Shown in pieces: positions 1,552 through 27,126 of a DNA stretch of 29,287 bases. The DNA comes from a virus. The position numbers and the translations under genes were made by a program. Under the pieces are notes generated by a model. That model had not been told where the DNA came from. It saw nothing but the letters and a program-made list of their open reading frames with translations, and did not search any database. Where the stretch lies: the IMG/VR virus record IMGVR_UViG_3300036398_002640, positions 1 through 29,287 of that record. The stretch is one strand, 5' to 3'. Position 1 is the first letter of the stretch. Each line of letters begins with the position of its first letter.

Positions 1552-2361
1552 ATGAATACTAAATTAGATATATCAGTAATACTTCCAATATCTTCTTCAT
1601 TTGGAAAAGATTTTGAAGAGCTTTTTGATAAAGCAATACAATCAATAAAAAAACAATCAGTTGGTGTGGGTGAATTAGTTATTGTACATACCGATGAAGA
1701 AAACCTTTGTAACTTTTTAAGTTCTTACGATTTTGAAGATTTAACAGTTAATAAAGTTTTAAATACAAGTTCGGACACGGATTATGCAAGTCAAATAAAT
1801 TTAGGAGTTAAAAATTCAAAATATGATTGGGTTAGTTTTTTTGAATACGATGATGAATATTCATTTATTTGGTTTAAAAATGTTAAAGATTATATAAATT
1901 ATCACCCTGAATGTGATGGATTTTTACCAATCGTTGTTGATGTAGATGAAAAAGGAATATTTGCAGGATACACAAACGAAGCAACATTTGCAGCATCATT
2001 TAATACTGAGATTGGTATTTTAACAAATGATTTATTAAACATGTATCAAAATTTCCAATCTAGTGGTATGGTGTTAAAAAAATCATTAATTGATAATTTT
2101 GGTGGATTCAAAAAATCAATGAAATTAACTTTTGTTTATGAATTTTTACTTAGACTAACTTATAATTCGGCAAGAATTATGACAATACCGAGACTTGGTT
2201 ACAAACATATCAACATGAGAGAGTCTTCAATTTTTTGGAGTTATAAAAATGGTAAAACACCAATGTCTGACAATGAAGTTAAATTTTGGATTGATACCGC
2301 AAAAAAAGAATATTTTTTCAATTCCGATAGAAATATAAAATATGAAGAAACAAATTCTTAA
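1552..2361 (+). CDS. GT-A fold glycosyltransferase (GT2-like)
   Basis: This 269-aa protein begins with a typical GT2 first strand, I-S-V-I-L-P-I at 7-13, and a following helix containing the A-I-Q-S-I-K-K-Q-S pattern of this family. A second core block, N-L-G-V-K-N-S-K-Y-D-W-V-S-F-F (residues 83-97), precedes an acidic D-x-D-like motif, E-Y-D-D-E-Y, at 98-103, which would bind the metal and nucleotide-sugar. The third conserved part is less clear, with an F-x-x-S-G-M-V-L-K-K block near 165-175. It follows the GT-B gene after 2 bases, and its stop overlaps the sigma-factor start as TAATG, so the three are surely co-transcribed. The substrate is unknown. The family call is firmer than any role. 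Confidence 0.72.
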   Translation: MNTKLDISVILPISSSFGKDFEELFDKAIQSIKKQSVGVGELVIVHTDEENLCNFLSSYDFEDLTVNKVLNTSSDTDYASQINLGVKNSKYDWVSFFEYDDEYSFIWFKNVKDYINYHPECDGFLPIVVDVDEKGIFAGYTNEATFAASFNTEIGILTNDLLNMYQNFQSSGMVLKKSLIDNFGGFKKSMKLTFVYEFLLRLTYNSARIMTIPRLGYKHINMRESSIFWSYKNGKTPMSDNEVKFWIDTAKKEYFFNSDRNIKYEETNS

Positions 2362-3119
2362 TGATTTTAGAAGATATCAATTCAACTGGTATTACGCAAG
2401 ACCATCAAAGTAAACGTGGAAAAAAAAATACTTCTACAACTAATTATTTTGATGTTAGAGAAGAAAATGCGGTAGTTCTTTTTCTAAATGCGGAAACTAT
2501 TGAAGAAAGAAATAAGATTTACAATGAGTTTTTGAAGAAACCTATCGAAAAAATGGTTTCTTCTATTATTAGAAGGTACAAACTTTATAGGAAAGATATG
2601 TCGTTTGATGAAATATTAAACGACACTCATTCGTTTTTAATAACTAAATCAGATAAATTTGTTCCTGATAAAAATAAAAAGGCGTATTCTTATTTCGGTA
2701 CAATTTGTAAAAATTATTTAATGGGTCAAATTATTAAAGACCAAAAAGAAATAAACCGAAAAGTATCTTATGAGGATATATCATCTAACTTAGAAAATAG
2801 ACCAGATATGGTTTATTATATTGAAAACGACGCTGTTGAATCGGATAAAATAATATCTGATTATATTGGTATGTTAAAAGAATTTATTAAGAACAGTAAT
2901 TTAAACGAGAATGAAACAAGACTAGGAGAAGCATTACTTCAATTATTTGAAACATACGACCAAATTTTTGTTGCTCACGATAATAAAAAGTTTAATAAAA
3001 ATTTAGTTTTATTGTCTTTAAGAGAAATGACCAATCTGTCAACCAAAGAAATAAGATTAAGTATGAAAAGGTATAAAAAACTTTATTTTGATTTTGTCAA
3101 AAAAATAGATTTAAGATAA
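2361..3119 (+). CDS. Late-type sigma factor, T4 gp55-like
   Basis: Probable phage sigma factor that redirects host RNA polymerase to late promoters. Residues about 57-130 fit sigma-70 region 2: a first helix P-I-E-K-M-V-S-S-I-I-R-R-Y, then D-E-I-L-N-D-T-H-S-F-L, then F-V-P-D-K-N, then Y-S-Y-F-G-T-I-C-K-N-Y-L, matching the core-binding and -10-recognition helices. At 252 aa it is slightly longer than T4 gp55. The C-terminal part (about 214-245, L-S-L-R-E-M-T-N-L-S-T-K-E-I-R) resembles a helix-turn-helix and could serve as a reduced region 4. The start overlaps the preceding stop as TAATG. The recurrent TATTTAT(A/T) sites in this window are its most likely targets, which is inference. A generic DNA-binding protein is the alternative. 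Confidence 0.72.
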   Translation: MILEDINSTGITQDHQSKRGKKNTSTTNYFDVREENAVVLFLNAETIEERNKIYNEFLKKPIEKMVSSIIRRYKLYRKDMSFDEILNDTHSFLITKSDKFVPDKNKKAYSYFGTICKNYLMGQIIKDQKEINRKVSYEDISSNLENRPDMVYYIENDAVESDKIISDYIGMLKEFIKNSNLNENETRLGEALLQLFETYDQIFVAHDNKKFNKNLVLLSLREMTNLSTKEIRLSMKRYKKLYFDFVKKIDLR

Positions 3120-8976: not shown

Positions 8977-9704
8977 AAAAACAAATAGTAAAAGAATCAT
9001 TTGATTTTTGGAGCACCATATCAAATTTTGTGGGTGACTTAGCCAGACAAACCGCAGGTGCTGTTGACGTTTTAGGTGACCCAATAGTAATTGCATCGTT
9101 AGTGAAAAACTACAATGAAATAGAAGAAACCCTTCAAAGATTTGAAAATTTAAAAAATCAATTATTAGGTCCTGAAATGGAATTAAACTATGAGAGTCTA
9201 AAAGAAGAAATGTTAGACATTAGAAACGATTTGGAAGTAGACGTTATTGATACTTTACAAGGTTTTGTTGAATTAACCCCAACAGGTCCTTTAGGTTCTC
9301 TAGCGTCGGGTATCGCACCATTACTTTTGAAGATGACAATAGAAGAGCTTATTGATACAATTCAGGAGTACATTCCACAAGATTTAGATGTTCCATTATT
9401 AGGAACACTAACTAATGCCGCTAGAGCAATTTATTTTATTGATAATATAGAAAAAGTTCAAAAAGAAATGAAACCGCTTCACGATGACCCATCAGTTTTT
9501 TCAAAGGAAGTTATTGAAAGATTAATGGTACATGAAGGAAAAAAGAAATCAGGAACAAAACTTTGTAGTAGAGGCAAATCGGCTGCGAAAGCAAAATTTG
9601 ATGTTTACCCTTCTGCGTACGCTAATGGATATGCAATTCAAGTATGTAAAGGTAAAATTAAAGGATTAGACGGAAAAAAAAGGTGTTCACCACCTTATTG
9701 TTAA
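8973..9704 (+). CDS. Virion-region protein with C-terminal Cys/basic module (DUF5872-like)
   Basis: The first about 180 residues are helical with hydrophobic stretches (G-P-L-G-S-L-A-S-G-I-A-P-L-L-L near 110-124). The last about 50 form a different module containing K-L-C-S-R-G-K-S-A-A-K-A-K-F, then Y-P-S-A-Y-A-N-G-Y-A and V-C-K-G-K, with a Cys at the C-terminus. This pattern recurs at the ends of many environmental T4-like phage proteins and resembles DUF5872; its function is not known to me. Four Cys and many Lys suggest metal or nucleic-acid binding. The gene starts by ATGA overlap and is the last of the plus-strand run. Its stop overlaps that of the convergent gene, which carries a related Cys-rich module. 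Confidence 0.75.
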   Translation: MKKQIVKESFDFWSTISNFVGDLARQTAGAVDVLGDPIVIASLVKNYNEIEETLQRFENLKNQLLGPEMELNYESLKEEMLDIRNDLEVDVIDTLQGFVELTPTGPLGSLASGIAPLLLKMTIEELIDTIQEYIPQDLDVPLLGTLTNAARAIYFIDNIEKVQKEMKPLHDDPSVFSKEVIERLMVHEGKKKSGTKLCSRGKSAAKAKFDVYPSAYANGYAIQVCKGKIKGLDGKKRCSPPYC

Positions 9705-10870
9705 TTGATTTTTAAATCGTCAATTTTTTTAAATTTATCTTCACTATAATCAGTAAATTTTCTAATTATATTCATTAATTGACCGTACTTATCTGTTTTG
9801 TCAAATAAGTTCATGATTTTGTTAGAATCCATTGGGTCATTAATATCGTTATAAAAAATAATTCCTTGTGGTGATGGATATCTACCACCTAAGTAATTTT
9901 CACCTGGTTTGTTTATATACATACCAAATTTAGAAGATTCTAATTTGGCTTGTAATTCTTTATTTTTTATTATTATATAACCTAAAGAACCCATTCTATT
10001 ATGTTTCTTAAACATATCATCACTATCTTTAGATGTTGTACACCATTTTGTTCCCGCACCATATTTACATGATGCGTCAAACGTCAAAGGTATTACTAGT
10101 AAAAAATCATCATTTTCAAAAAGTTTAATATATTCATGTGGTTCAACTTTAAACTTTTCAGAAATCACGCTTTTACTTAATATACTTTCTTTTTTTGGTT
10201 TATAAGATGTATATATTGGTTTTTGACCTTTACCTGTTTGTGTGTCTTTTTTCTCCGCTTTCCTTTTTTGTGAACACGCAGATTTTTTTTGTGAGTCAGA
10301 CATTTTACCTGCAACACCCGCCGCTCTACATTTTGGATATGCACCCTTAGACGTATCAGGTCTTCCACATGGTGGATGTTTACCATCTACTTTTCTACAA
10401 ATATTAACCCAAGGACCTTTTGGTTGTTTACTTCCTTTTGGTTTTTTCTTAGTTCCAAACCAAACCGCCAAATCTTCAGTGAGCAAATTAACTAAATTTA
10501 AAATTTGTTCAGATACACTACCGCCTGATTCACCGCCAGCGTTATCACCATCTCCCAATCCATCACTATCAACTCCTTGAAATTTGTGTTTAAGTTTTTT
10601 AGCCATTTTATGTGCTATATGTTCTTTTGTTTTTACGTTTTTTGAATCTATTATTCCATCTAAACTATCGTAATTAACTTCAGCACTTTCATATTTTGAG
10701 ATTGGTACGATAAAAGGTGATAAAGCATTTTTTTCCCAATCCATTAGACCAGGACTAATTGGCGGTTTATAACTACCAGAACCACCTGATACCGTAGCTT
10801 CATTTATATTTTCCCAAACAGTAAAATCATTTGATTTTATATCCTTGTATATTACTTTATCTTTTGACAT
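9701..10870 (-). CDS. Protein with DUF5872-like Cys module and C-terminal GxGTKWCT domain
   Basis: I place the start at the ATG at 10870 (389 aa). A longer frame to 10960 adds a Lys/Ile-rich leader and runs over the divergent gene and the TATTTATA site. Residues 30-50 are Gly/Ser/Pro-rich. Residues about 152-208 hold a basic module with Cys at 158, 168, 181 and 199, including P-P-C-G-R and Y-P-K-C-R-A-A. The C-terminal domain (about 235-389) contains K-Y-G-A-G-T-K-W-C-T-T at 269-279, a signature found in assorted phage proteins whose activity I do not know. It is the last minus-strand gene, downstream of the capsid gene but separated by the 78-aa plus-strand gene. Conserved Cys, His and Trp leave an enzymatic role open. 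Confidence 0.72.
   Translation of the reverse strand: MSKDKVIYKDIKSNDFTVWENINEATVSGGSGSYKPPISPGLMDWEKNALSPFIVPISKYESAEVNYDSLDGIIDSKNVKTKEHIAHKMAKKLKHKFQGVDSDGLGDGDNAGGESGGSVSEQILNLVNLLTEDLAVWFGTKKKPKGSKQPKGPWVNICRKVDGKHPPCGRPDTSKGAYPKCRAAGVAGKMSDSQKKSACSQKRKAEKKDTQTGKGQKPIYTSYKPKKESILSKSVISEKFKVEPHEYIKLFENDDFLLVIPLTFDASCKYGAGTKWCTTSKDSDDMFKKHNRMGSLGYIIIKNKELQAKLESSKFGMYINKPGENYLGGRYPSPQGIIFYNDINDPMDSNKIMNLFDKTDKYGQLMNIIRKFTDYSEDKFKKIDDLKIN
9703..9730 (+). terminator. Possible weak terminator for the plus-strand virion operon
   Basis: Bases 9703-9711 (AATTGATTT) can pair imperfectly with 9714-9725 (AAATC, bulge, CAATT), followed by a T run at 9724-9730. It lies directly after the stop at 9704 but is A/T-rich with a bulge, so it would be weak. 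It is coding for the convergent gene. Confidence 0.3.
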
Positions 10871-10886
10871 TTTAATTCTATCATTA

Positions 10887-10894
10887 TATAAATA
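10887..10894 (-). promoter_or_regulatory. TATTTATA motif (minus), putative late promoter
   Basis: Read on the minus strand this is TATTTATA, 16 bases before the ATG at 10870. Read on the plus strand it is TATAAATA, the T4 late consensus, 9 bases before the ATG at 10904. It sits alone in a 33-base divergent gap and could serve either or both genes. Confidence 0.5.
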
Positions 10895-10903
10895 TTTCAA
10901 ACT

Positions 10904-11140
10904 ATGGTTAATTATAATATTTTTGATATTTTTAAATTTAAAAATGACGAAGAATTTCAAACATTACTAGATTCTTTAAATAAAGAACAATCTATCTATT
11001 TTTTAATAAATTCTGTAAAACATGCTAATAGACAAGGTGTTTATACATTAGAGGAATCAGAATTAATTTCTAAATGTATTAGAAAACTGTATTCACCGAA
11101 TGAAAATCAATCGGATGTAAACGAAAAAAGGGACGAATAA
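10904..11140 (+). CDS. Hypothetical small protein, 78 aa
   Basis: A short acidic, helical protein with no recognised family: N-terminal aromatic and Asn residues, F-Q-T-L-L-D-S-L-N-K-E-Q-S-I-Y-F in the middle and a polar Asn/Glu-rich end. It is a single plus-strand gene inserted between the capsid gene and the 389-aa gene, both on the minus strand. Its stop codon lies in the loop of a strong hairpin terminator at 11130-11147, which supports a genuine transcript ending here. The upstream region is the 33-base divergent gap with the quasi-palindromic TATAAATATTT. Function unknown; a small accessory gene is the best description. Confidence 0.65.
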   Translation: MVNYNIFDIFKFKNDEEFQTLLDSLNKEQSIYFLINSVKHANRQGVYTLEESELISKCIRKLYSPNENQSDVNEKRDE

Positions 11141-11172: not shown

Positions 11173-12999
11173 TTATCTCAATTCTCTCAAATCAAATGTT
11201 CTAACACCATCAACAGTCACTTTACCGTAGAAACGGTTGTTAACCATCTTCTTAGCGTATCTTGTCATGATACCTTTGATTGGTGTGAAGTTGAATGGGT
11301 TATACATTGTTGGAGTTAATTGTAGAGGAACATATGGTGCGTAAACATAACCAGTGTCTAACAACGAGTTACCTTTGTGACCCAACAACAATGTGTTTGG
11401 TGGGAAATAAGGGTCTCTGTAGACTTGGTATCTACCTGCCAATGTACCTACTCTTTCAATACCCATGTTGTATTGGTCTTGCTCAGGTGCTGCGTTTGAT
11501 ACGTGGAAGTATTCCAAATCATCAAAAATTGCACTGATTTCAGAAGATACAACAATCCAGTTAGCTCCACCTCTTAATGTAGATTTGTGGATTTGAGCCG
11601 ACAATTGGTTGATTGCTGTCATCAACGTTTGGTTCCAATCTTTTTGAGTATATTGAGTTAATGGATTTGCGGTTGTACCTCTCTTCCATCCGTTGTAATC
11701 CCAACGTAAAGTCCATGCCGCACCTTTTCTTAAGTCTCTCAAGATTTCTCTGTCGATTTCAGCAGCAACTTGCTCTGACAATAAAGCAGTTAATTCAGCT
11801 TCAGCATCAATATTATGGAACGCTGCAACGTCTTGTGCTAATTCAGGTGACCACTGAGCTCTTAATTTTCTTTCAGTAACTGATACTGTAACAGATTCAA
11901 GGTCAAATGAAACTTCACCGATTTGGTCTTCAAATTCCAATTCTTTATAGATTCTATAAGTCATTGAGAAATCTAAACCATTAGTTGAGCTTACTGTTGT
12001 AGTTAAACCAGAATATCCGTCTAATGAACCTGCTCCGATTGAACATGGAACTTGAGCATCAACTTCTAAGTAAATAATACCGTCTGCATCACAGATATTA
12101 TCATATGTACCACCGTTACCACCAGGGTTAGAACCACTTGTGTTAGGGAAGTTTGTAGTTGTGCTTGAACCATATTGTACAATACCTTTACCATATTTTT
12201 GAGTAACAACTCTGAACAAACATGGAGCTGACATTCCTGAGAATGGGTGGTTAACACCTGCTTCTGTGATTGGTGCGATTGTCATACCAGCCAAGAATTC
12301 TTCAGTATCCATTTCATTACCGTTTGGTCCGATTAATTTACCAGCACCACTGTAGTTAAATCCTGAGAAAGCTACTAAAACTTTTCTGTATGGACCACCA
12401 GTTGTAGTATAACCTGAATTAACTAATTGACCTCCATTCCAAACTTGTGTACAACCTGTAACTGTTCTAGCTGAGAATGCTCCTTTAGAATAATCAAATA
12501 ATCCAGGTGGGTCTAAATCTGGTTCAGTACCTTCATAGAATCTATCATATAAATTCTTATCATTTGCACCATAACCAGTGTCAGGTGAAGAAGGTCCGTT
12601 AGGTGCTCCAAAAGGTGAATAGTGGTAGCCACCAGTGGTTGGGTCTTGTTGACCTGTTGTGTAACCTTGAATTTTAGGTACAAAGTAGAACAATTTACCG
12701 ATAGGTAAGTTCATTGCTTGTACAGAAACGATGTCGTTAGCTAACAACTTAGAGAAAACTCTTCTTACGATTGGGAATACAACCGTTTCGAAAGAACCGT
12801 CTGAAGATGTGCTAGCAGCTTCGTTTATTAAGTGTGATGCTTGGTTTTCATAAAGTTGAGCGATGTTTTCTTTAACATGACCTCTCAAACCTTCTAGGAA
12901 CCCAAGTCTGTCCCATTTGTTGATTGTATCTTCTTTGATAACTTTAAGGTGCTTAAGACCAATGTTACCAACAAGACCTGATTCTAATAATGCTCCCAT
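11173..12999 (-). CDS. 23: Major capsid protein, T4 gp23-like
   Basis: Main shell protein of the head. The N-terminus matches the gp23 family: W-D-R-L-G-F-L-E-G-L (29-38), N-I-A-Q-L-Y-E-N-Q-A (45-54), then F-E-T-V-V-F-P-I-V-R-R-V-F (70-82) and L-A-N-D-I-V-S-V-Q-A-M-N-L-P (86-99). The match continues to an internal block with F-D-L-E-S-V-T-V-S-V-T-E-R-K-L-R-A and to a basic C-terminus. The sequence I-N-E then A-A at 58-62 fits the gp21 cleavage rule (Ile/Leu-x-Glu), so the mature protein probably begins near Ala61, close to the T4 cleavage position. At 608 aa it is longer than T4 gp23, with Gly/Thr/Ser-rich segments around 110-320 that may be surface loops. No TATTTATA lies in the 28-base gap before it, so it is presumably read through from the scaffold gene. 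Confidence 0.95.
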   Translation of the reverse strand: MGALLESGLVGNIGLKHLKVIKEDTINKWDRLGFLEGLRGHVKENIAQLYENQASHLINEAASTSSDGSFETVVFPIVRRVFSKLLANDIVSVQAMNLPIGKLFYFVPKIQGYTTGQQDPTTGGYHYSPFGAPNGPSSPDTGYGANDKNLYDRFYEGTEPDLDPPGLFDYSKGAFSARTVTGCTQVWNGGQLVNSGYTTTGGPYRKVLVAFSGFNYSGAGKLIGPNGNEMDTEEFLAGMTIAPITEAGVNHPFSGMSAPCLFRVVTQKYGKGIVQYGSSTTTNFPNTSGSNPGGNGGTYDNICDADGIIYLEVDAQVPCSIGAGSLDGYSGLTTTVSSTNGLDFSMTYRIYKELEFEDQIGEVSFDLESVTVSVTERKLRAQWSPELAQDVAAFHNIDAEAELTALLSEQVAAEIDREILRDLRKGAAWTLRWDYNGWKRGTTANPLTQYTQKDWNQTLMTAINQLSAQIHKSTLRGGANWIVVSSEISAIFDDLEYFHVSNAAPEQDQYNMGIERVGTLAGRYQVYRDPYFPPNTLLLGHKGNSLLDTGYVYAPYVPLQLTPTMYNPFNFTPIKGIMTRYAKKMVNNRFYGKVTVDGVRTFDLRELR

Positions 13000-14765: not shown

Positions 14766-15488
14766 TTATCTATGTCCCAAATAATCGTTCAATTTTGTCA
14801 TTAAGTCAAGTGATTTTCCTAATCCGCCATCAATTCTTGGTTCTTGTTTGTCTTTTTTGTCTACATCTATATTTTCGTCATACAATTTTCTATCATCTTT
14901 ATTAGAATAAAGATACGCACCTGGTGTAGATGGATTCATAACCAAATCAAAACATATAATTTCAAAATCATCTTGAACTTCGTTGTGTTCGCCTTTTTTT
15001 GCTAAAGAACCAACTCCTCTTGAAGATATCCCCATAGTAACACCTTGTCTCATTAGATTGGCCGCGATATCTCCTTTTGTAGATACAACACCTCTTTCAT
15101 GAAAACCTGGTGAAGTTAATAATCTTAACTTACCCATTAAAATATTATCATCCCACCATACATCATCAATTATGTGTGACACTCTGTCCAAATCAATTAG
15201 GGAAGATTCAGGATGATTTAATTCTGAAGTTGATAAACCTTTTTGAATTAATGATTTATATTTATCCGCTTCTCTTCTTAATATTTTTTCAGGGTAAACT
15301 CTGCCGTTTCTATTTGGTACCCCATACTTTTGTAAAGTCGCGTAAAACACAAAAGGTTTTGAATGGTCAATTTGAGTTTTATTTGCTTGTCCAAAATTCT
15401 CGTTTAAAGAATCTTTCCAAGAAATACTACCCGCATCATATTCAATTAATATACCTTTACCAGTTTCGTTTGGTCCTAAAATTTTCAT
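14766..15488 (-). CDS. 21: Prohead maturation protease, T4 gp21-like
   Basis: Serine protease that cleaves the capsid and core proteins during head maturation. The family blocks are clear: N-R-N-G-R-V-Y-P at 59-66, E-L-N-H-P-E at 89-94 with the likely catalytic His92, V-S-H-I-I-D-D-V-W-W at 103-112, and G-I-S-S-R-G-V-G-S at 153-161 with the catalytic Ser in the S-S pair. It ends the core with D-L-V-M-N-P-S-T-P-G-A. At 240 aa it is close to T4 gp21. The last 40 residues are acidic and polar, probably a removable tail. It is preceded by a TATTTATA site at 15502-15509 and followed by the DUF4494-like gene. Its expected recognition rule (Leu/Ile-x-Glu) is met in the capsid protein. Confidence 0.92.
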   Translation of the reverse strand: MKILGPNETGKGILIEYDAGSISWKDSLNENFGQANKTQIDHSKPFVFYATLQKYGVPNRNGRVYPEKILRREADKYKSLIQKGLSTSELNHPESSLIDLDRVSHIIDDVWWDDNILMGKLRLLTSPGFHERGVVSTKGDIAANLMRQGVTMGISSRGVGSLAKKGEHNEVQDDFEIICFDLVMNPSTPGAYLYSNKDDRKLYDENIDVDKKDKQEPRIDGGLGKSLDLMTKLNDYLGHR

Positions 15489-15501: not shown

Positions 15502-15509
15502 TATAAATA
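15502..15509 (-). promoter_or_regulatory. TATTTATA motif (minus), putative late promoter for protease
   Basis: TATTTATA on the minus strand, 13 bases before the protease ATG at 15488, in the 31-base gap after the 148-aa gene. Confidence 0.55.
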
Positions 15510-15519
15510 TAAGGACTAT

Positions 15520-15966
15520 TTAAACTTTCATTTTTTCTTTTGTTTTGGCATATTGAATTGTAAAATATTTTGAATCAGATAAAACCTCGTTGTATATTTT
15601 GTTAATTATTTTTATTAGTTCTTCAGATATTTCATTTGATTTAAAATCGACATCTTGTTTTGTAAAAAAAGTTATTTCTAAATTTAAGAATGATGATTTT
15701 TTTAATCTTATACCACTTGTTCTTAAATCCATGTCAACTATAAAGTGGTCTTTAAATAATTTTTTATTTGATATTTCTAATATTTTGTGTTTTATTGTTC
15801 TTGTTATAGAACCTACGGTGATACTCCAATTTTCCTTTTCCACTTTTGGTGTCACCCATGTTTGTAATACTAAATAAATTGATTTTAATTCTGTCGTGTT
15901 GACACTACCAAAATAACATTTGGCATCTTTAAACAATTCTAATTTGAATGTTTTTCCTTTTTTCAT
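15520..15966 (-). CDS. Hypothetical protein, 148 aa, in head-gene cluster
   Basis: No family recognised. The protein mixes short beta-like segments (K-L-E-L-F, S-I-Y-L-V-L-Q-T-W-V, W-S-I-T-V-G-S-I-T-R-T-I) with a helical C-terminal third (E-I-S-E-E-L-I-K-I-I-N-K-I-Y). Its N-terminus is basic, with no signal peptide or Cys motif. It lies between the plus-strand bS21/membrane-protein island and the protease gene, on the same strand as the head genes. The ATG at 15966 follows an A/T-rich stretch lacking both TATTTATA and a clear host-type promoter, so how it is transcribed is unclear. Small core or head accessory proteins occupy this interval in T4, but no homology is claimed. Confidence 0.68.
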   Translation of the reverse strand: MKKGKTFKLELFKDAKCYFGSVNTTELKSIYLVLQTWVTPKVEKENWSITVGSITRTIKHKILEISNKKLFKDHFIVDMDLRTSGIRLKKSSFLNLEITFFTKQDVDFKSNEISEELIKIINKIYNEVLSDSKYFTIQYAKTKEKMKV

Positions 15967-16050: not shown

Positions 16051-16058
16051 TATTTATT
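16051..16058 (+). promoter_or_regulatory. TATTTATT motif, putative late promoter for bS21 gene
   Basis: TATTTATT on the plus strand, 18 bases before the ATG at 16077, in the 110-base divergent gap (15967-16076). The rest of that gap is A/T-rich with no hairpin or other motif I can support. Confidence 0.5.
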
Positions 16059-16076
16059 ATCATATAACAAAAAAAT

Positions 16077-16271
16077 ATGATTGTAATAAAAATAGAAAAA
16101 GGTGAAAGTTTGGACAGAGCATTAAAAAGGTACAAATATAAAGTTATTTCAACTAAACAAATTGAAGAGTTGAGAAAAAGACAAGAGTACGTAAAAAATA
16201 CGGTTATAAAAAGGGAAAAAATGAAAAAAGCCAAGTACAAACAATCTTTGATGAATAAGTTTGAAAACTGA
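16077..16271 (+). CDS. rpsU: Ribosomal protein bS21 homologue
   Basis: Predicted small-subunit ribosomal protein bS21 encoded by the phage. The N-terminal strand I-V-I-K-I-E-K-G-E-S (2-11) and following L-D-R-A-L-K-R-Y-K (12-20) match the family signature (V-x-E-x-E-x-x-x-x-A-L-R-R-F-K in proteobacteria). The next helices, I-E-E-L-R-K-R-Q-E-Y-V-K (29-40) and I-K-R-E-K-M-K-K-A-K-Y-K-Q (44-56), follow the Bacteroidota form, in which L-R-A-R-Q-x-F-x-K-P and K-R-x-x-x-x-K-A-A-Y are usual. The 64-aa length is that of Bacteroidota bS21. In Flavobacterium ribosomes bS21 helps sequester the 16S anti-Shine-Dalgarno tail, so a phage copy could replace the host protein and alter initiation. No Shine-Dalgarno precedes this gene. 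It begins a two-gene plus-strand island inside the head cluster. Confidence 0.85.
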   Translation: MIVIKIEKGESLDRALKRYKYKVISTKQIEELRKRQEYVKNTVIKREKMKKAKYKQSLMNKFEN

Positions 16272-16301: not shown

Positions 16302-16550
16302 ATGAAATCAATTAAAAATTTTATTAAATCACTTTTGGGTGATGGTTCTGATGTATCATCTAAAAGATTTTCAGGTATTGTTACATTACTAAACTTAATT
16401 GTTTTAGCTTATGTTGCAACACAAAAGACTGGTGTTTGTCCTGAGTACATGTACGACACACTTTCATTATTGTGTGGTGGTTTTTTAGGACTCACAACTA
16501 TTGAGGCTATTTTTGGTAAGAAAAAGAATCCTGAAACAAAATCAGAGTAA
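16302..16550 (+). CDS. Small two-helix membrane protein, possible holin
   Basis: This 82-aa protein has two hydrophobic segments long enough to span a membrane: residues about 23-40 (G-I-V-T-L-L-N-L-I-V-L-A-Y-V-A-T) and 50-71 (L-S-L-L-C-G-G-F-L-G-L-T-T-I-E-A-I). They are joined by a short loop and flanked by Lys-rich ends. The basic N-terminus with S-S-K-R-F and the short charged C-terminus (K-K-K-N-P-E-T-K) are the size and topology of class II holins and similar phage membrane proteins. No endolysin gene is adjacent, so the holin call is tentative. It follows bS21 with its own TATTTATT and ends at a strong terminator. Confidence 0.7.
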   Translation: MKSIKNFIKSLLGDGSDVSSKRFSGIVTLLNLIVLAYVATQKTGVCPEYMYDTLSLLCGGFLGLTTIEAIFGKKKNPETKSE

Positions 16551-16553
16551 ATG

Positions 16554-16582
16554 AAAAACCCATCGATTTCGATGGGTTTTTA
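16554..16582. terminator. Bidirectional intrinsic terminator
   Basis: AAAACCCATCGA (16555-16566) pairs with TCGATGGGTTTT (16569-16580), flanked by A and T runs. It closes the plus-strand bS21/membrane island and also the minus-strand unit ending at 16585. Confidence 0.88.
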
Positions 16583-16584
16583 TT

Positions 16585-17313
16585 TTAAAGTCCTTCTGAA
16601 AGTTTTTTAAGTTTATAATAAGAAATTGTATCTACAAATGTATTTTCTACTCTTTCTTTCGTTTCTTTAATTTTAGTTTTTGTTTCTTCATCTGAAGGTT
16701 CAACTGAATCTAATTTTGTAATAACTTCAGTCTTTAATCTTTCAATACCTTCATTAAGTTCTTCTGTGCTCATTTTTAATAATGACCTTAACTCAAACAA
16801 TTCAGACTCAGATAATGTTGAAAATTTTTTTGAGAATGTATCAGCAGCGATTCCAAGCATATTTTCAAGAGGAATATTAATTGTTTCTGTTATTGGTTTT
16901 TTATCAATTTTTGTTTCAGTTAATTTCTTGTGTAATTCTTTTTTTGATTCAACAAGATTAACAAAATCTTCTGAAGTTTTAGCAAAAACTAAATCATCTA
17001 AAAGTTTGTAGTTGTTTTCAACTTTTTCATTTAAAGTTTCAACCCAATATTCAAATTCTTCAAATTGTTTTTTATTTTCTTTAATTGTGTTTTTGATGTC
17101 TTCAATAGACAATGATAAGAATTCTTTAGCAACATCTTCTTTCAAATTGTTCATTTTCATAATTGAACTGTAGTTCAGATATACTTTACCAACTTCTTTG
17201 TTGTCTTCCATAAATTCTTTGAACTCTTTTAAAACCCTTTTGAATTCAGGTTTTTTATATACACTAACAAAGTGGTTTTCTACTATACTTTTTAATACTC
17301 CAAAATTTCTCAT
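16585..17313 (-). CDS. Hypothetical helical protein after portal gene, possible prohead core
   Basis: A 242-aa Lys/Glu-rich, nearly all-helical protein with extended coiled-coil-like stretches (about 60-135 and 165-235) and no Cys motif or membrane segment. In T4 the genes directly after the portal gene encode small prohead core proteins (67, 68). The location here, 13 bases after the portal stop and before the protease, suggests a comparable internal core role, though no sequence match is claimed. Leu/Ile-x-Glu sites occur in it, for example L-S-E and L-F-E around 167-172, and would allow cleavage during maturation. A TATTTATT ends 3 bases before the ATG. Confidence 0.7.
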   Translation of the reverse strand: MRNFGVLKSIVENHFVSVYKKPEFKRVLKEFKEFMEDNKEVGKVYLNYSSIMKMNNLKEDVAKEFLSLSIEDIKNTIKENKKQFEEFEYWVETLNEKVENNYKLLDDLVFAKTSEDFVNLVESKKELHKKLTETKIDKKPITETINIPLENMLGIAADTFSKKFSTLSESELFELRSLLKMSTEELNEGIERLKTEVITKLDSVEPSDEETKTKIKETKERVENTFVDTISYYKLKKLSEGL

Positions 17314-17316
17314 ATC

Positions 17317-17324
17317 AATAAATA
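17317..17324 (-). promoter_or_regulatory. TATTTATT motif (minus), putative late promoter
   Basis: On the minus strand TATTTATT is followed by GAT and then the ATG at 17313, a 3-base spacing. It fills most of the 13-base gap after the portal stop. Confidence 0.5.
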
Positions 17325-17326
17325 TC

Positions 17327-19138
17327 TTATTTATTTAATAGTTCGTCCAATTTATTTTCTATTTCTAATAAAGATTTTCTTCCTTTCGACAAATCTATCT
17401 CATCAATTCCACTCAACATGTCGTTTTCTAATATTAAATTCATATCTCTATCTACGATAGATTCGGGAGCCAATTCACCACCTGGAGGTGGTGGTCCGCC
17501 CAATTCTTCGCCACCCATAGGAGGAGCACCTAAATCACCACCCATAGGAGGTTCGCCACCTTCCGCTCCACCTTCAGGTGCGGTTCCTGCTGGCTCATCA
17601 GGTTTTTTACCATAAAGTTTATCAATGTTATCAAATATACCTGTGTGAATGATAACTTCAGGGGTTTTTGTAAGCTCAGCACCAACCGCTTTTTCAATTC
17701 TCTGTTGTTGTAAATCAAGTTTAATTTCTTCATCAGAAAATCCAAGAATATGTTTTTTAGCCCAAGTAACAGATACTGGTGAAATACCCTCAATACCCGT
17801 AACTGCATCTTTATACAACAACATTTTTTCTTTCCAAGTATCAATTTTTAATAAATCCGCTTGTGTAGAAGGATTTGTAAGACCTAATGTAAAGTTTGTT
17901 AATTCATCTTCAAATCCTAAAACAAATAAGTGAATGATTGCAATCTTGTTTAATTCTTGAATCATTGATTTTTGAATTCTGTTAATTGTACGAGCAAATC
18001 TAATATCTTGTAATGCCAAGTTTTTACCATCACCAACAACTTCTTCAAAACCTAAGAATGCTTTAGGTACACGAAGTGCCGTAACTAATTTTTTCTGAAT
18101 ATATTCAATATCAGCAATTTCAGAAAGGTTCTGAGCGCCTGCTAAGGTTTCAATTGGATTTGCTTGTGCTGGGTCACGAACAGGAATAAAGAAATCTTGG
18201 TCAACAGCCATTTGGTTCATACGTAAATCAACATTACCCGTTTTTGGGTCAACAACTTGGTCACGTTTGAACTTGTTGGCAATTCTTTGGATATATGGTT
18301 CAACATCCTTGTCGTCCATATTTCCAACAAATATTTTAAACACCCTTCTTTCGGGTGCTCTTGATGTTCTATAAATCAACATTGCGTCTTCAGAAAGTAA
18401 AAGTTGTTTCCAAACTCTTCTCGCTTTTTCTAACATAGAAGTACCATAAGGAAGTTTTCGGTCATCACCTAATAATCTAAAGTGTGCCACTTCCCAAGTA
18501 TTAAATTCCATATCTTTTACTTTCCAAACAAATTTCAACGCTTTAGCCTCATCAGATGTGTTATGTGCTGGTTTAACTTTCATACCCCTCTCTAATCTTT
18601 CGATTTCGATATTTGGTAATTGTTGACATCCAACAATACCTTTTTCAGGGTCTAATTTTAGGTAAACAAAGTTATCGCCATACTTACATGTGTTTCTTGT
18701 CCACATTGGTAAGTTTGTGTTAATATCTAATCTGTTATTAAACAAGTCGGCCAATACACCTTTAATACGAGATGATTCAGAATAAATCTGTAAAATAAAG
18801 CCGTCTTCATTTGTTGTTGTAGATTCCTCAGCGTATATGTCTAAAGCGGTAGAAATCTCAGGTGTATATTCCATTGATTCATAATCATAATATGAAGCCA
18901 ATCTTGTTGGTTCATAATAGATTGCTTGAGTATAAAGATTGTTTTCAATCTTAGCCCATTGTTGTCCTAAATAATAACTTTGCTGTGCTTGAAGTTTTTG
19001 TTTTTCAAACTCTTCCTTATTATCAGTTTTAAGAAGTTCTTTTTTGTCGAATTTGTATACTGGTGGTTGTTGGCTCAGTGTTGAGTCAGGACCAAAGACT
19101 CTTGTAAGTCGTTGCCATACGGTTAAATTATCTGCCAT
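17327..19138 (-). CDS. 20: Portal protein, T4 gp20-like
   Basis: Twelve-fold vertex protein through which DNA enters the head and on which head assembly starts. The gp20 family blocks are visible: Y-Y-D-Y-E-S-M-E-Y-T-P-E-I-S-T-A-L-D-I-Y (83-102), K-Y-G-D-N-F-V-Y-L (152-160), the Y-G-T-S-M-L-E-K-A-R-R-V-W-K-Q-L block (231-246), R-A-P-E-R-R-V-F (260-267), and G-D-G-K-N-L-A-L-Q-D-I-R-F-A-R-T-I (369-385). The last about 85 residues include a Gly/Pro/Glu-rich extension with P-P-M-G-G repeats (about 515-558), not part of the T4 core and probably flexible. It follows the terminase gene with a 40-base gap lacking TATTTATA, so it likely shares the terminase transcript. Confidence 0.94.
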   Translation of the reverse strand: MADNLTVWQRLTRVFGPDSTLSQQPPVYKFDKKELLKTDNKEEFEKQKLQAQQSYYLGQQWAKIENNLYTQAIYYEPTRLASYYDYESMEYTPEISTALDIYAEESTTTNEDGFILQIYSESSRIKGVLADLFNNRLDINTNLPMWTRNTCKYGDNFVYLKLDPEKGIVGCQQLPNIEIERLERGMKVKPAHNTSDEAKALKFVWKVKDMEFNTWEVAHFRLLGDDRKLPYGTSMLEKARRVWKQLLLSEDAMLIYRTSRAPERRVFKIFVGNMDDKDVEPYIQRIANKFKRDQVVDPKTGNVDLRMNQMAVDQDFFIPVRDPAQANPIETLAGAQNLSEIADIEYIQKKLVTALRVPKAFLGFEEVVGDGKNLALQDIRFARTINRIQKSMIQELNKIAIIHLFVLGFEDELTNFTLGLTNPSTQADLLKIDTWKEKMLLYKDAVTGIEGISPVSVTWAKKHILGFSDEEIKLDLQQQRIEKAVGAELTKTPEVIIHTGIFDNIDKLYGKKPDEPAGTAPEGGAEGGEPPMGGDLGAPPMGGEELGGPPPPGGELAPESIVDRDMNLILENDMLSGIDEIDLSKGRKSLLEIENKLDELLNK

Positions 19139-19178: not shown

Positions 19179-20954
19179 TTATCTTCTTCCTCCACCGAAT
19201 AACCATAAATACTTTTCATAATCACTTTTTGTCGGATTACTTCCAAATCTATCACCATAAGATGAAGGGGACATCACAGGTAATCCAGGATTAAAATCGG
19301 TTACTTCTTTATGGTCATTACTTGTTTGAACACTCCACGAGTTTAATATTGCTTTTGTTTGTTCTGTAACTTTTTCTAATTGATTATATGCATTTTGTCC
19401 TACATATAGTGCCATAGATATTGACATAATTAAATCGTCATGATGACCTTTCATATGGTCAGGTCTACCATTTATATAAACAAATGTATTCATTTCACCC
19501 AACAACCTTGGTGAATATACTTTAAATCCATGTCTTAACGCCTCCTCAAAAGCCGAAATAATCTGAACACGTTTGGCGTTAAAATTAATTCCTGGAATTT
19601 TTTCCATTGCTTTAGGATTATAATCCCATACATTAGCATAATTAACACCATCAACATAAAGATTTTTATATCCCATTTCTTGTAGTTTTCTTGATGTTGA
19701 TACACCCATACCACCTGTAATATCTACAACCACTAATGTGTCATAATACACCGCCCATTTATATGCAATTTCAGCCGCAACATCAGGTGGAATTTTACCA
19801 AGATATTCAGCAACTTGTTCTCTATCATCAAAATCAATAATTTGAAATGATGTATAATCTTCAGAATCCCCTCTTGAAACGTCAATACCCATAATGTATC
19901 TATGACCAACTTGTGGTTCTTTCCAAATCCAAAGTTGGTTTTGAACCATTTTACTTTCAGGTTGACAAACCATTTCGGTTCTTATCCTTTCGATTATTTT
20001 ACTATCAATAACATTATCACCTGAACCCAAAAAGTTACATTCCAATTCCTGTGATATTTTTCTTCTATCAAATTTTAATTTTTTGGCCATTTTTTCAAAC
20101 CAATCTGAATGTGGTTTGTATCCATTGTCCATTAATTTTTTAAATTCTTCATAGTTTCTTTCATTATGTGGAACACCTTCATAAGAAATTGTTTCTAAAT
20201 CTTTGTATTCATCTCTATTAAGATAATAATGAATAATATCGTTAACCTTAATAAATTGCAGGTCTTTTGTATATCTTGGGTCTCTCCACCAAAACATTTC
20301 AGTTATTTTAAAGTTATTCATTCCCTTAATTGATTGGTCATAGATTGGATAATAAATTGAATCATAACCATTGGGGGTTGAAATAACTATAACTTTACCT
20401 CCTGTTGAAAGGGATGCCATACAAGCAGCCCAAAAGTCGTCACCCGCTTCAATATATGCGGCTTCGTCAAATATTAATACGGTAGGGGTATAACCACGAA
20501 GTGCGTCATTGGATGTTGCAACAGCCTTTACTTCACAACCGTTTGTTAATTTCCAATGACGAGCAGCGTTTTTTTCACTTGAGAAGTCAATTCCCATCCA
20601 ATTTGGCCACTGTTCAGTAAATTGTTTAATCTTGTTTGCAAATTCGACAGATGTGTCCAATTTGTTGGCAATAATAAGAATCTTTTCAGGTTTTTCTTTT
20701 TTTGCAAATACCAATTTTTTTGATGTCCAAGCTGCCGTTACGGTAGAAACGCCCGCTTGACGATATTTTAATGCGATGTTTTCTTCATATTCATCGTAGT
20801 CATTAACAAGTTGTATTTGGTCGGAAAATAAATCTAAAGGTACAAAACGTTGTACTGTGTTGTCATATGTTTGAAGATATGTTCTTAATGCGTAAGGTGT
20901 ACTCTTAACACATTTTGCATATTCAATAAGTGCTTGTTCTCTTGTTAAACTCAT
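19179..20954 (-). CDS. 17: Terminase large subunit, T4 gp17-like
   Basis: ATP-driven DNA-packaging motor with nuclease. In the N-terminal ATPase the Walker A variant Y-R-Q-A-G-V-S-T (64-71), Walker B T-V-L-I-F-D-E (158-164) with catalytic Glu164, and coupling motif V-I-S-T-P-N-G (190-196) are all present. The C-terminal RNase H-like nuclease shows I-D-V-S-R-G (357-362, Asp358), V-V-V-D-I-T-G (408-414, Asp411) and G-H-H-D-D-L (503-508). At 591 aa it is close to T4 gp17 (610). A TATTTATA lies 4 bases upstream of the ATG. I could not identify a gp16-like small subunit; one of the uncharacterised genes upstream may take that role. Confidence 0.96.
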   Translation of the reverse strand: MSLTREQALIEYAKCVKSTPYALRTYLQTYDNTVQRFVPLDLFSDQIQLVNDYDEYEENIALKYRQAGVSTVTAAWTSKKLVFAKKEKPEKILIIANKLDTSVEFANKIKQFTEQWPNWMGIDFSSEKNAARHWKLTNGCEVKAVATSNDALRGYTPTVLIFDEAAYIEAGDDFWAACMASLSTGGKVIVISTPNGYDSIYYPIYDQSIKGMNNFKITEMFWWRDPRYTKDLQFIKVNDIIHYYLNRDEYKDLETISYEGVPHNERNYEEFKKLMDNGYKPHSDWFEKMAKKLKFDRRKISQELECNFLGSGDNVIDSKIIERIRTEMVCQPESKMVQNQLWIWKEPQVGHRYIMGIDVSRGDSEDYTSFQIIDFDDREQVAEYLGKIPPDVAAEIAYKWAVYYDTLVVVDITGGMGVSTSRKLQEMGYKNLYVDGVNYANVWDYNPKAMEKIPGINFNAKRVQIISAFEEALRHGFKVYSPRLLGEMNTFVYINGRPDHMKGHHDDLIMSISMALYVGQNAYNQLEKVTEQTKAILNSWSVQTSNDHKEVTDFNPGLPVMSPSSYGDRFGSNPTKSDYEKYLWLFGGGRR

Positions 20955-20958
20955 TAAA

Positions 20959-20966
20959 TATAAATA
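20959..20966 (-). promoter_or_regulatory. TATTTATA motif (minus), putative late promoter for terminase-portal unit
   Basis: On the minus strand TATTTATA is followed by TTTA and then the terminase ATG at 20954, in the 19-base gap after the preceding gene. Confidence 0.55.
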
Positions 20967-22320: not shown

Positions 22321-23315
22321 TATTTTAAATTATAACCTAATTTAGTGAAAGTATCAAAACTTAACCATTTTGGTGCTCTACCTTTAGGACCTGGCTTTTG
22401 AGCTGGTTCTATTTTAAATGGATTTTTTGTTTTTGGTTTTTCCTTTTCTTTTTCTTTGGTTCTTTCGGGTGCTTTAGCAGGTGCAGCACTTCCACCTTCT
22501 TCTATTTCACCTTTAGGACCTGGCTTTTGAGCTGGTTCTATTTTAAATGGATTTTTTCTACTTGGTTTTTCTTTTTCCTTTTCCTTTTCTTTAGTTCTTT
22601 CTTTTTCTTTTGGAGCCGCTTCGCCAGCACCTTTAGGGCCTGGCTTTTGAGCTGGTTCTATTTTAAATGGATTTTTTCTACTTGGTTTTTGTTTTTCCTT
22701 TTCCTTTTCTTTGGTTCTTTCAGGCGCTTCTTTAGTTCTTGTTGAAGATTCAATTAAATCCATGAGTTCTTTTTTACTTATTGACTCAGGTATATACTTT
22801 TCAATTAACTTTGTCAAGCTCTCTTCTAATTTCTTTTCAGGTAATTTAGAAAAATCTGTTTTATCTGAAAATTCTTTAGCCCATTTACACCATTTCTTTT
22901 TTGTCTTTTCAGTTCTTGAGTTGTTACATTTAGCCCAAAATAATTTTTGTTGGTTTTTAGATTCAAATTTTTCTGATAGTTCAGTTTCAAACATACCCAT
23001 TCCGTCCGCACTTTTATCAGGGTCGTTAACAACTGTAACCGTATCATCTTCTTCATTCATTTCTTCTTCCATCGGGGTAACTTTTGTTGACCCACCTGTC
23101 GTGTCAATTTCCAAATTACCAATCATTGTCTTGCTATTTGGTTTTACTTGATATGTTTTTATATTTTTAGTAATTATTTGTGTATTTGGTGGTGTCGATT
23201 GCTCTACCAATCTATTATACAACAAATTTATCTGAGATTCTGATAAACCTCTTAATGTATTATAACTGAATCCGTCAGCTATTAATTTTTCTATTTTTGA
23301 ACCTATGTTAGACAT
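22320..23315 (-). CDS. Lys-rich repeat protein, 331 aa
   Basis: Its first half includes a distinct small module at about 118-160: S-K-N-Q-Q-K-L-F-W-A-K-C, then K-K-W-C-K-W-A-K-E-F-S and D-F-S-K-L-P-E-K-K. It has two Cys and several aromatic residues, resembling short basic modules in other environmental phage proteins. The second half consists of three copies of a roughly 40-residue unit, each with R-T-K-E-K-E-K-E-K followed by K-N-P-F-K-I-E-P-A-Q-K-P-G-P-K-G. It is strongly basic and probably disordered, so nucleic-acid or capsid-interior binding is a reasonable guess. The start overlaps the end of the upstream gene and its stop overlaps the downstream start, so it belongs to a coupled operon. 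Confidence 0.75.
   Translation of the reverse strand: MSNIGSKIEKLIADGFSYNTLRGLSESQINLLYNRLVEQSTPPNTQIITKNIKTYQVKPNSKTMIGNLEIDTTGGSTKVTPMEEEMNEEDDTVTVVNDPDKSADGMGMFETELSEKFESKNQQKLFWAKCNNSRTEKTKKKWCKWAKEFSDKTDFSKLPEKKLEESLTKLIEKYIPESISKKELMDLIESSTRTKEAPERTKEKEKEKQKPSRKNPFKIEPAQKPGPKGAGEAAPKEKERTKEKEKEKEKPSRKNPFKIEPAQKPGPKGEIEEGGSAAPAKAPERTKEKEKEKPKTKNPFKIEPAQKPGPKGRAPKWLSFDTFTKLGYNLK
22381..22740 (-). repeat. Three in-frame tandem repeats, about 120-129 bp each
   Basis: Near-identical copies of a segment encoding K-N-P-F-K-I-E-P-A-Q-K-P-G-P-K-G begin near 22381, 22510 and 22630, each followed by a Lys/Glu-rich stretch. The period is about 129 then 120 bases, always a multiple of three. DNA identity is high even at silent positions, suggesting recent duplication or gene conversion. 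Confidence 0.9.
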
Positions 23316-23712
23316 GTGTTAAATCTTTTTCTATTTTTAATACTATATCTCTTTCGTATAGTTTATCGATTACTTTTTCTTCTGTGTCACCAAAATGAAA
23401 AACTAATCGTGTTTGGCTTTCATCGTAATATTCGTTTTCTATATCTTCCCACGCTAACGCAATTACATTATCCACCGCATCATATATGGAAAAAAAGTCA
23501 GAGTTTTGAATGACGTTTAATTTTATTTTGTCACTTTTCAAAACACCGACTTTAGATATAAAATCAATGTGTGGAGGTTGGGGGTTTCCCCCTGCTGGAG
23601 ATGAATCCCAACCTTCACCATCTATTTTTTCTTCTGTTGAGAATATAAACTCATAAAGATTATCACCTTTAAAGTTTGGCCCCAACTCATTTACAAAAAC
23701 TAACTTGTTCAT
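23308..23712 (-). CDS. Hypothetical protein, 134 aa
   Basis: No recognised family. The sequence alternates beta-like segments (K-L-V-F-V-N-E-L, N-L-Y-E-F-I-F-S-T, I-K-L-N-V-I-Q-N-S-D) with an acidic middle and contains A-L-A-W-E-D-I-E and R-L-V-F-H-F-G. A Gly/Pro-rich loop (S-S-P-A-G-G-N-P-Q-P-P) lies near 37-48. It appears to be a compact alpha/beta domain without Cys motifs. It overlaps the upstream gene's stop and overlaps the downstream start by 8 bases, so it is translationally coupled inside the four-gene run that precedes terminase. A head-associated accessory role is inferred from position. Confidence 0.72.
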   Translation of the reverse strand: MNKLVFVNELGPNFKGDNLYEFIFSTEEKIDGEGWDSSPAGGNPQPPHIDFISKVGVLKSDKIKLNVIQNSDFFSIYDAVDNVIALAWEDIENEYYDESQTRLVFHFGDTEEKVIDKLYERDIVLKIEKDLTHV

Positions 23713-26228: not shown

Positions 26229-26471
26229 TTACAATTTTTTAAAATCGAATTTTTTGTTGATTTGTGAAGAAAAATATTTTCCTTGTGATTCTGCAAGTCT
26301 GAACTGAACATACATTTCATGTGGTACATCTTTGTATTCATACTCTTGACCTGTATTAAATTTTACCGTCATTGTTTTAGTTGCAGTATCATATCTACTT
26401 TCTGTAATGTTCGATGATTTAACAATATTATATATTACAGTTCCTTTGATTTCTTCTCTTAAAATAGCCAT
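26229..26471 (-). CDS. KTSC-domain protein, 80 aa
   Basis: After a 17-residue lead the sequence fits the KTSC domain: S-S-N-I-T-E-S-R-Y-D (19-28), then M-T-V-K-F-N-T-G-Q-E-Y-E-Y-K-D-V-P (34-50), then F-R-L-A-E-S-Q-G-K-Y-F (57-67) and a final I-N-K-K-F. The domain is found alone in many phages and at the end of some lysyl-tRNA synthetases; its biochemical role is unclear to me. No alternative start exists between the ATG at 26471 and the domain. A terminator of the preceding gene and a TATTTATT (3 bases before the ATG) lie just upstream, so it opens its own transcript. Confidence 0.8.
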   Translation of the reverse strand: MAILREEIKGTVIYNIVKSSNITESRYDTATKTMTVKFNTGQEYEYKDVPHEMYVQFRLAESQGKYFSSQINKKFDFKKL

Positions 26472-26474
26472 AAT

Positions 26475-26482
26475 AATAAATA
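26475..26482 (-). promoter_or_regulatory. TATTTATT motif (minus), putative late promoter for KTSC gene
   Basis: It lies immediately downstream of the hairpin terminator at 26485-26513 and 3 bases before the ATG at 26471. The order terminator, motif, start codon leaves almost no room for another promoter, which supports a promoter function and a leaderless message. Confidence 0.6.
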
Positions 26483-26484
26483 CG

Positions 26485-26513
26485 AAAAAACCCCCACATT
26501 GTGTAGGGGTTTT
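26485..26513 (-). terminator. Intrinsic terminator after UVR-motif gene
   Basis: CCCC..ACA (26491-26498) pairs with TGT..GGGG (26502-26509) with one C-A mismatch and a 3-base loop; the minus-strand transcript then enters a U run (A run 26485-26490). Confidence 0.75.
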
Positions 26514-27089: not shown

Positions 27090-27120
27090 TTTGATATTTT
27101 GGAAATAAATTTTATATTTG
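27090..27120 (+). promoter_or_regulatory. Bacteroidota-type promoter for ClpC-like gene
   Basis: TTTG at 27090-27093, a 19-base spacer, then TATATTTG at 27113-27120, a full match to the TTTG/TAnnTTTG consensus of Bacteroidota housekeeping sigma. The start of transcription would fall close to the ATG at 27127, so the message is either leaderless or is translated from the ATG at 27157. Confidence 0.7.
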
Positions 27121-27126
27121 AACCAT

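Follow-up and report, generated by a model that had tools for sequence, protein, structure and literature searches.

The phage gene described here encodes a full-length ribosomal protein bS21 of the Bacteroidia type, and its message lacks a Shine-Dalgarno (SD) sequence. We consider the best explanation, at a probability of about 0.5, to be that the phage protein, made late in infection, secures a phage-controlled supply of complete SD-blind ribosomes that is free of host feedback. The core finding, bS21 in the head cluster of Bacteroidetes jumbo phages, has been known since 2022 (PMC9723584); what is added here, and what merits a test, is a probable escape from feedback, a residue signature and a tie to non-canonical copies in cells.

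A bS21 gene in a T4-like head cluster

The DNA analysed, here called the window, spans 29,287 bases and is a single virus fragment that makes up the entire IMG/VR record. Its portal gp20, capsid gp23, S77 protease and T4-type terminase (Pfam E values of 3.2e-75, 1.1e-70, 1.5e-21 and 2.8e-11, respectively) identify a T4-like myovirus, most likely a jumbo-type myophage of Bacteroidota whose host group is the Flavobacteriales. A scan of the window for Rfam families and tRNA found none. The bS21 reading frame lies on the strand opposite to the surrounding head cluster (Table 1). The first-pass annotation had seen the main interest of the gene in this placement, together with apparently leaderless late genes. 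The placement is real, with T4-type head genes as neighbours, but it appeared in print in 2022, as did the reverse orientation, the late transcription and Tyr54 (PMC9723584).

In the profile search proposed by that annotation, the protein scores above the curated cut-offs for bS21: 43.4 bits against 27 for PF01165 (E 2.9e-11, profile positions 2-54 of 55) and 36.7 bits against 28.95 for the NCBIfam model TIGR00030. It also matches PHROG 21469, ‘ribosomal protein S21’, and its best match in the PDB, at E 1.3e-12 across residues 1-63, is 7jil_z, a chain of the Flavobacterium johnsoniae ribosome (PMC9976891). The bS21 helices are present in the predicted structure, a two-helix AlphaFold model with a pLDDT of 86 and a pTM of 0.42. 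A Foldseek search with this model returned 11 matches, all of them chains of ribosome entries and all weak (E 0.05-1.3); four are named bS21 in the PDB sequence search and the others were taken as bS21 by size and identity, and the fold search supports the assignment without proving it. In each of the 14 pairs of phages compared, bS21 is under purifying selection (pN/pS 0.03-0.30). A chance reading frame was rejected on the profile scores and the selection, and the full-length Bacteroidota form, recognised early on from the sequence, is confirmed by these scores and by Tyr54. A protein with no ribosomal role, be it a relic or one reused elsewhere, for instance in the head, would suit the position among head genes and the divergent copies of sister phages, but the strong profile match, the conserved rRNA-tail residue and the purifying selection make this very improbable.

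Relatives were collected in a viral scan with bS21 (34 loci) and a terminase scan (80 of 135 kept). Some contigs came from both, so that many loci are the same contig found twice, and we therefore count distinct leaders or proteins. Unnamed genes are referred to by their first coordinate. Of 73 loci spanning the 15520 gene to the portal gene, 69 contain bS21 (32 distinct proteins), in every case between those neighbours and opposite to them in strand; it was not found in the spanning loci L108, L110, L112 and L115, where the terminase is 60-63% identical. In the annotated phage collection, the top-ranked terminase match has 29.5% identity, and none of the 1446 records reaches 60%. The 15520 gene sits where PMC9723584 places bS21_CN, the neighbour on the opposite strand, a likeness that is positional. 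The small protein encoded 3' of bS21 has no Pfam or NCBIfam match and a PHROG match at E 0.08 only. Elsewhere in the window, the genes at 9701-10960 (-) and 8973-9704 (+) share, by eye, a similar basic Cys-containing stretch, which in 9701-10960 has a weak PHROG match of unassigned function (phrog_23735).

A gene for a protein with two UVR motifs (26517-26984, -) is divergent from that of a ClpC-like unfoldase (27118-29199, +), which itself contains a UVR-like stretch scoring just below the Pfam cut-off. The two resemble the adaptor-unfoldase pair McsA-ClpC. Their presence within the same window would suit a counter-defence or plain dosage role, in which the phage only replaces bS21 lost or removed in the host during infection. 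However, we know of no such loss of host bS21, and a strict link between ClpC and bS21 was rejected: ClpC-like genes also occur in L108 and L110, two of the loci for which no bS21 was found. Although bS21 binds loosely and can be exchanged (PMC6375957) and McNutt et al. suggested a protease-and-replacement contest (PMC9976891), we regard this role as unlikely.

Table 1. Features of the window, with coordinates counted from its first base
Feature	Coordinates	Strand	Evidence or remark
Candidate late sigma factor (weak)	2361..3119	+	phrog_234
gp23-like major capsid protein	11173..12999	-	Pfam/PHROG; upstream region without TATTTAT
Prohead protease (S77)	14766..15488	-	Pfam/PHROG; TATTTAT at 15503-15509
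Conserved gene, 148 aa, divergent from bS21	15520..15966	-	present too at 4 loci lacking bS21
TATTTATTATCATA, candidate late promoter element of bS21	16051..16064	+	
Phage rpsU, bS21, 64 aa, Tyr54/Val23/Lys27/Gln28	16077..16271	+	profiles, AlphaFold, Foldseek, residue counts
Small protein, 82 aa, 3' of bS21, membrane-/holin-like by eye only	16302..16550	+	own TATTTAT 21 nt before ATG
Hairpin with A/T runs on either side, likely two-way terminator ending the bS21 unit	16554..16581	.	
Conserved head-cluster protein, 242 aa, no assigned function	16585..17313	-	TATTTAT 17318-17324 ends 4 nt before ATG
gp20-like portal protein	17327..19138	-	Pfam/PHROG
Large terminase	19179..20954	-	Pfam/PHROG; TATTTAT 20960-20966 ends 5 nt before ATG
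KTSC-domain protein	26229..26471	-	TATTTAT 26476-26482 ends 4 nt before ATG

Shine-Dalgarno pairing and the TATTTAT element

SD pairing was scored 4-25 nt upstream of the start against what we take to be the 16S tail string. None of 36 distinct phage bS21 leaders (75 loci; the count omits L035 and leaders below 25 nt, including L058 and L104) has an SD of at least 5 nt, and one has a 4-nt match; their median pairing of +1.6 kcal/mol is the same as in shuffles, and the lowest value is -3.3. Three loci with other bS21 types (L032-L034) were scored separately, and two of these have an SD of at least 5 nt. For host rpsU, the best 80 of 546 genome matches gave 55 distinct leaders with a median pairing of -19.6 kcal/mol, 49 of them with an SD of at least 5 nt and 46 with one of at least 7 nt. 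Among 30 distinct leaders from 296 Bacteroidota genomes, almost all from the best-scoring loci, an SD of at least 5 nt is present in 27; their median is -14.8, and 21 lie at -10 kcal/mol or below.

The rpsU gene of F. johnsoniae is autoregulated via an extended SD that is read by bS21-lacking ribosomes, as described in 2023 by McNutt et al., who also mention phage bS21 (PMC9976891). Without bS21, or with a C-terminally cut form of it, ribosomes initiate more rapidly on SD-bearing rpsU but more slowly where the mRNA has no SD; the Y54A exchange raises SD reporters (PMC9976891). The extended SD with pairing below -13 kcal/mol that marks autoregulated rpsU is absent from the window bS21. Where host rpsU is autoregulated through its SD, the phage copy with its SD-less leader should therefore escape that feedback. 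But does every host have it? About 80% of Flavobacteriales fall into the strong SD class of McNutt et al. (PMC9976891). In the order to which genome G227 belongs, taken as Flavobacteriales from its Flavobacterium-like members, 137 genomes gave a match; of 29 loci among the best-scoring of these (L328-L356, a list rich in small genomes, many of 1.1-1.9 Mb), only 10 have an SD of at least 5 nt. None of this length precedes rpsU in L330, L332, L333, L336-L338, L343, L346, L349, L352, L353 and L355, several of them from genomes of 1.1-1.8 Mb, and F. johnsoniae-type autoregulation is probably missing in those small genomes. Since SD-less rpsU thus also occurs in cells, feedback escape matters only in hosts having that feedback. 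Within the window, an SD-like site before the gene at 23308-23712 was rejected as regulation: it falls within the preceding gene, and in just 2 of 20 distinct leaders is the pairing as strong as -10 kcal/mol.

Most phage bS21 leaders have a different sequence in common. TATTTAT lies no more than 40 nt before the start in 24 of the 30 distinct leaders counted without L052 and L058; in those lacking it (L084, L086, L090, L095, L099 and L100), a TAT(A/G)TATC-like string stands in its place by eye. The window contains TATTTAT 20 times on both strands together, 10 times in sense orientation within 40 nt of one of 32 gene starts and twice in antisense. These 10 starts compare with 0.37 in random windows and with a mean of 1.06 (maximum 6) in 2000 trials of leader shuffles; a Fisher test of unit-head against internal genes used a grouping set after the counts were seen, and its p value is not relied on. 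In distinct leaders of relatives, TATTTAT precedes the protease (27/27), 13028 (12/12), 16585 (30/34), terminase (28/40), 16302 (7/9), KTSC (10/15) and portal (15/35) genes. It was not found upstream of the capsid (0/22), 14546 (0/22), 15520 (0/31), 20974 (0/13), 22320 (0/11), 23308 (0/20), 23709 (0/18), UVR (0/8) and ClpC (0/10) genes, and families with fewer than five leaders gave 0/4 (25431), 0/1 (9701), 1/1 (7477) and 1/1 (25002). The distribution fits a promoter element at the heads of transcription units, though the late capsid gene is without one. By eye, a different, ATAAAC-like string lies ahead of the 15520 gene, of the capsid gene and of most of their relatives, many capsid leaders included, where TATTTAT is absent; in the capsid leader of the window, it overlaps the stop codon of the preceding gene.

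That TATTTAT is common to bS21 and other late genes, the capsid gene excepted, points indirectly to late expression of bS21. A literature search on TATTTATA as a phage promoter gave nothing apt as judged by title and abstract opening, and one on late promoters or leaderless messages in Bacteroidetes phages gave nothing apt among the matches listed. A late-sigma-like protein is weakly suggested by the family of the 2361 gene, in which 14 of 17 members match phrog_234 at E values up to 0.1 (best 5.5e-4); against the PDB, nothing better than E 0.2 was found.

The T4-type late -10 box offers a model for how TATTTAT might act. If the element acts in this way, messages with TATTTAT 4-5 nt before ATG would be leaderless or nearly so, a geometry seen at 5 of the 10 window sites and, among relatives, in 13/34 leaders of 16585, 19/40 of the terminase, 7/15 of KTSC and 3/30 of bS21. 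The KTSC gene appears to be the strongest near-leaderless case: a hairpin terminator (26487-26513, -16.3 kcal/mol, z -3.8) is directly followed by TATTTAT, and since it ends just before the element, there is hardly any room for a leader. The bS21 message of the window, with 19 nt between TATTTAT and ATG, would carry a short leader. Of the leaderless late genes proposed in the first-pass annotation, some near-leaderless starts are thus consistent with the sequence, but the proposal depends on the inferred promoter element. Moreover, SD-less does not equal leaderless: SD-less messages are the published rule in Bacteroidota, and 3 of the 32 gene starts in the window have an SD of at least 5 nt.

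Residue signature and cellular relatives

Tyr54, described as unique to Bacteroidia, stacks on A1534 of the 16S rRNA (PMC9976891) and is present in the window bS21 at the F. johnsoniae position. Residue 54 is Tyr in 29, Phe in 3 and His in 1 of the 33 distinct phage proteins (L032-L035 and L104, of other type or truncated, are omitted), which we count as aromatic in all 33. In cells, Tyr54 occurs in 49/49 proteins of the Flavobacteriia/Bacteroidales-type set and in 4/29 of other Bacteroidota. The earlier idea that phage bS21 retunes initiation preference toward leaderless messages is unsupported as worded, as the residue whose change frees SD use is kept; the phage protein should therefore preserve the SD-blind mode of the host rather than open a new one.

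Other positions set the phage proteins apart from 78 host proteins, a set that leaves out the chromosomal gene L117 and the later-found extra cellular copies. Gln28 is present in 33/33 phage against 0/78 host proteins, Lys/Arg27 in 32/33 against Gly27 in 77/78, and Val/Ile23 in 33/33 against Phe/Tyr23 in 77 of 78, while Pro41 is retained in 4/33 against 78/78. Chen et al. had named residues 21, 23, 25 and 28 as divergent in 2022 (PMC9723584); new here are the invariance of Gln28 and the loss of Gly27 as measured quantities. The signature is not purely viral: cellular copies in genomes G001 and G119 (L314) also have Lys27-Gln28. In AlphaFold models, the phage helix runs unbroken from residue 12 to 36 and the host has two, 12-26 and 28-36, with a break at 27, a predicted difference that amounts to one residue.

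Chen et al. sited their divergent residues where mRNA would bind and suggested that phage bS21 replaces host bS21 and favours phage mRNA (PMC9723584). On this reading, found in outline also in the first-pass annotation, the altered alpha1-alpha2 region of ribosome-bound phage bS21 would select phage over host mRNAs. The phage-wide residues 23, 27 and 28, the unbroken helix and the mRNA-proximal site would all suit such a selection. However, we found no mark on phage mRNAs that such ribosomes could read; the remaining 29 of the 32 window starts are without an SD of at least 5 nt, like most Bacteroidota messages, and both the cellular copies with Lys27-Gln28 and the single-residue difference between the models speak against it. 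We hold a selection of this kind to be possible but doubtful.

Nine of the 33 phage proteins lack both Arg18 and Tyr19 and retain Lys/Arg27-Gln28 and the aromatic residue 54; in a tenth protein, that of L053, residue 18 is Lys and Gly27 is retained. Loss of Arg18/Tyr19 with the other residues kept is seen at L079, L081, L082 and L085, and at L084, L086, L090, L095, L099 and L100. The loss of Tyr19, a core residue, is odd and counts against plain replacement of host bS21. Could the phage protein instead be an inhibitor that leaves ribosomes poor at host initiation? The conserved N-terminal residues lost in several related phage copies would suit this, as would the bS21 of a pelagiphage, which enters E. 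coli ribosomes and leaves them about 5% active (PMC6375957). Yet that value came from a mismatched host, all 33 proteins retain the aromatic residue that clamps the tail, and related phages express bS21 late with capsid genes, when translation is needed (PMC9723584), all of which makes an inhibitor improbable.

For the origin of the gene, a first tree grouped all phage bS21 with L117, a chromosomal gene of a Flavobacteriaceae genome (100/97). The reading of L117 as a co-assembled phage was set aside, its neighbours being host-like by eye; a terminase search there was empty, which by itself shows nothing. Of 296 Bacteroidota genomes, nine have at least two bS21 matches, and seven of these were examined (G097 and G253, with two matches each, were left out). 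G001, G089, G104, G119 and G199 combine a canonical copy with an SD (-17.5 to -19.4 kcal/mol) and an SD-less copy (-0.8 to -1.5 kcal/mol), G119 featuring a third copy with a weak SD (-9.8 kcal/mol); both copies are SD-less in G038 and both have an SD in G141. In a second tree with host rpsU, built on 64 columns without L359 and L360 and with host rows L118-L195 thinned to one in four, the 33 phage proteins fall together with 10 non-canonical genes from cells (86/77, not starred). These 10 comprise six extra copies, two of them from G119, the single matches of G227, G065 and G179, and a gene of G313 from outside the 296-genome search; nine are without a clear SD. An AU test does not reject a clade made up of phage proteins alone (p 0.40). 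Descent straight from canonical Flavobacterium rpsU, allowed by the first tree, was set aside when the 10 cellular genes joined the phage. With moderate confidence, the tree suggests that non-canonical genes are the nearest cellular kin of phage bS21, with no direction of transfer implied.

In the passage by McNutt et al. on bacteria that have additional bS21 genes, Bacteroidota are not mentioned (PMC9976891). We read 10-kb neighbourhoods of seven non-canonical copies (L375-L381, from G104, G199, G119, G119, G089, G227 and G001, respectively; that of G227 is its only match). A sigma-70 family gene adjoins bS21 or is one gene off in five of them, and none was found at L376 and L381. Four of the five bS21-linked sigma proteins were scanned, and all pass the general sigma-70 model, with the best named model, RpoD (RpoS for L377), below its cut-off. 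A related 247-aa gene is found in the cluster of two non-canonical chromosomal copies. The sigma-linked copies would be a cellular counterpart if the SD-less phage bS21, akin to the extra Flavobacteriales copy, silences SD-dependent host rpsU and its Lys27-Gln28 helix tunes ribosomes to short-leader or leaderless late messages, a combination that we think rather unlikely.

Proposed role and comparison with known bS21 systems

In the explanation that we prefer, a phage-controlled supply of SD-blind ribosomes, phage bS21 would be made late from a TATTTAT-type phage promoter and enter host 30S subunits, displacing host bS21. Judging by the F. johnsoniae biochemistry, Tyr54 would hold the 3' tail of the 16S rRNA in the platform pocket, and the ribosomes would thereby remain SD-blind and efficient on SD-less, partly near-leaderless late messages. 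Because the phage mRNA has no SD, it stands outside host feedback where bS21-lacking ribosomes prefer SD-bearing rpsU mRNA; with the site filled by phage bS21, translation of host rpsU would be switched down. The net effect would be phage-controlled complete ribosomes late in infection, with no new start-site code. Besides the lost Tyr19, two points speak against this explanation: if the true host is without the feedback, that part of the model fails, and the pelagiphage protein in E. coli ribosomes suggests that replacement can inhibit (PMC6375957).

The SD-less phage gene bears on why phages carry bS21. As F. johnsoniae has revealed both how bS21 influences the choice of mRNA and how it feeds back on its own gene, the SD-less gene turns the general idea of a ribosome takeover into a question for reporters, namely whether phage bS21 reduces SD-bearing rpsU'-gfp and leaves SD-less messages unaffected. 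The signature residues are what to alter, and the extra bS21 genes without an SD in some Flavobacteriales are what to compare.

Finally, we would compare the window with described bS21 systems. The 47 phage genomes reported by Chen et al. carry bS21 on the reverse strand within the same set of head genes; their hosts were predicted to be Bacteroidetes, residue 54 is aromatic, and bS21 is transcribed late, its transcripts being high together with those of capsid genes (PMC9723584). The window phage agrees with them in bS21 lying on the opposite strand within the terminase, portal, prohead protease and capsid genes, in the aromatic residue and in its low GC, but unlike their jumbo phages it is represented by a 29-kb fragment. 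Here, bS21 occurs in loci with terminases only 59-61% identical to that of the window, whereas Chen et al. found none below about 70% similarity, a different measure with a different reference (PMC9723584). The SD state, the promoter element, the near-leaderless starts and the cellular non-canonical bS21 were not met in the available excerpts of that paper (PMC9723584), and those of PMC13157829 hold nothing on Bacteroidota bS21.

The bS21 of F. johnsoniae (7jil; PMC9976891) is co-linear with the window copy over residues 1-63 and has Tyr54, Ala52, Arg46, Lys51 and Gln56 in common with it. The window copy is 44% identical, has Lys27-Gln28 for Gly27-Thr28, has lost Pro5 and Pro41 and is without an SD. 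The non-canonical Bacteroidota genes are like the phage gene in a turn without Gly27, in being mostly SD-less and in their tree group, but unlike it they are chromosomal. Pelagibacter phage HTVC008M also carries bS21 on a myovirus genome, and there entry into ribosomes has been demonstrated, but its protein is closest to that of its Pelagibacter host, which has a different translation system (PMC6375957). The bS21 paralogues of Francisella are cellular genes, but they share with the phage protein the idea of ribosomes specialised by bS21 variants (PMC9578407).
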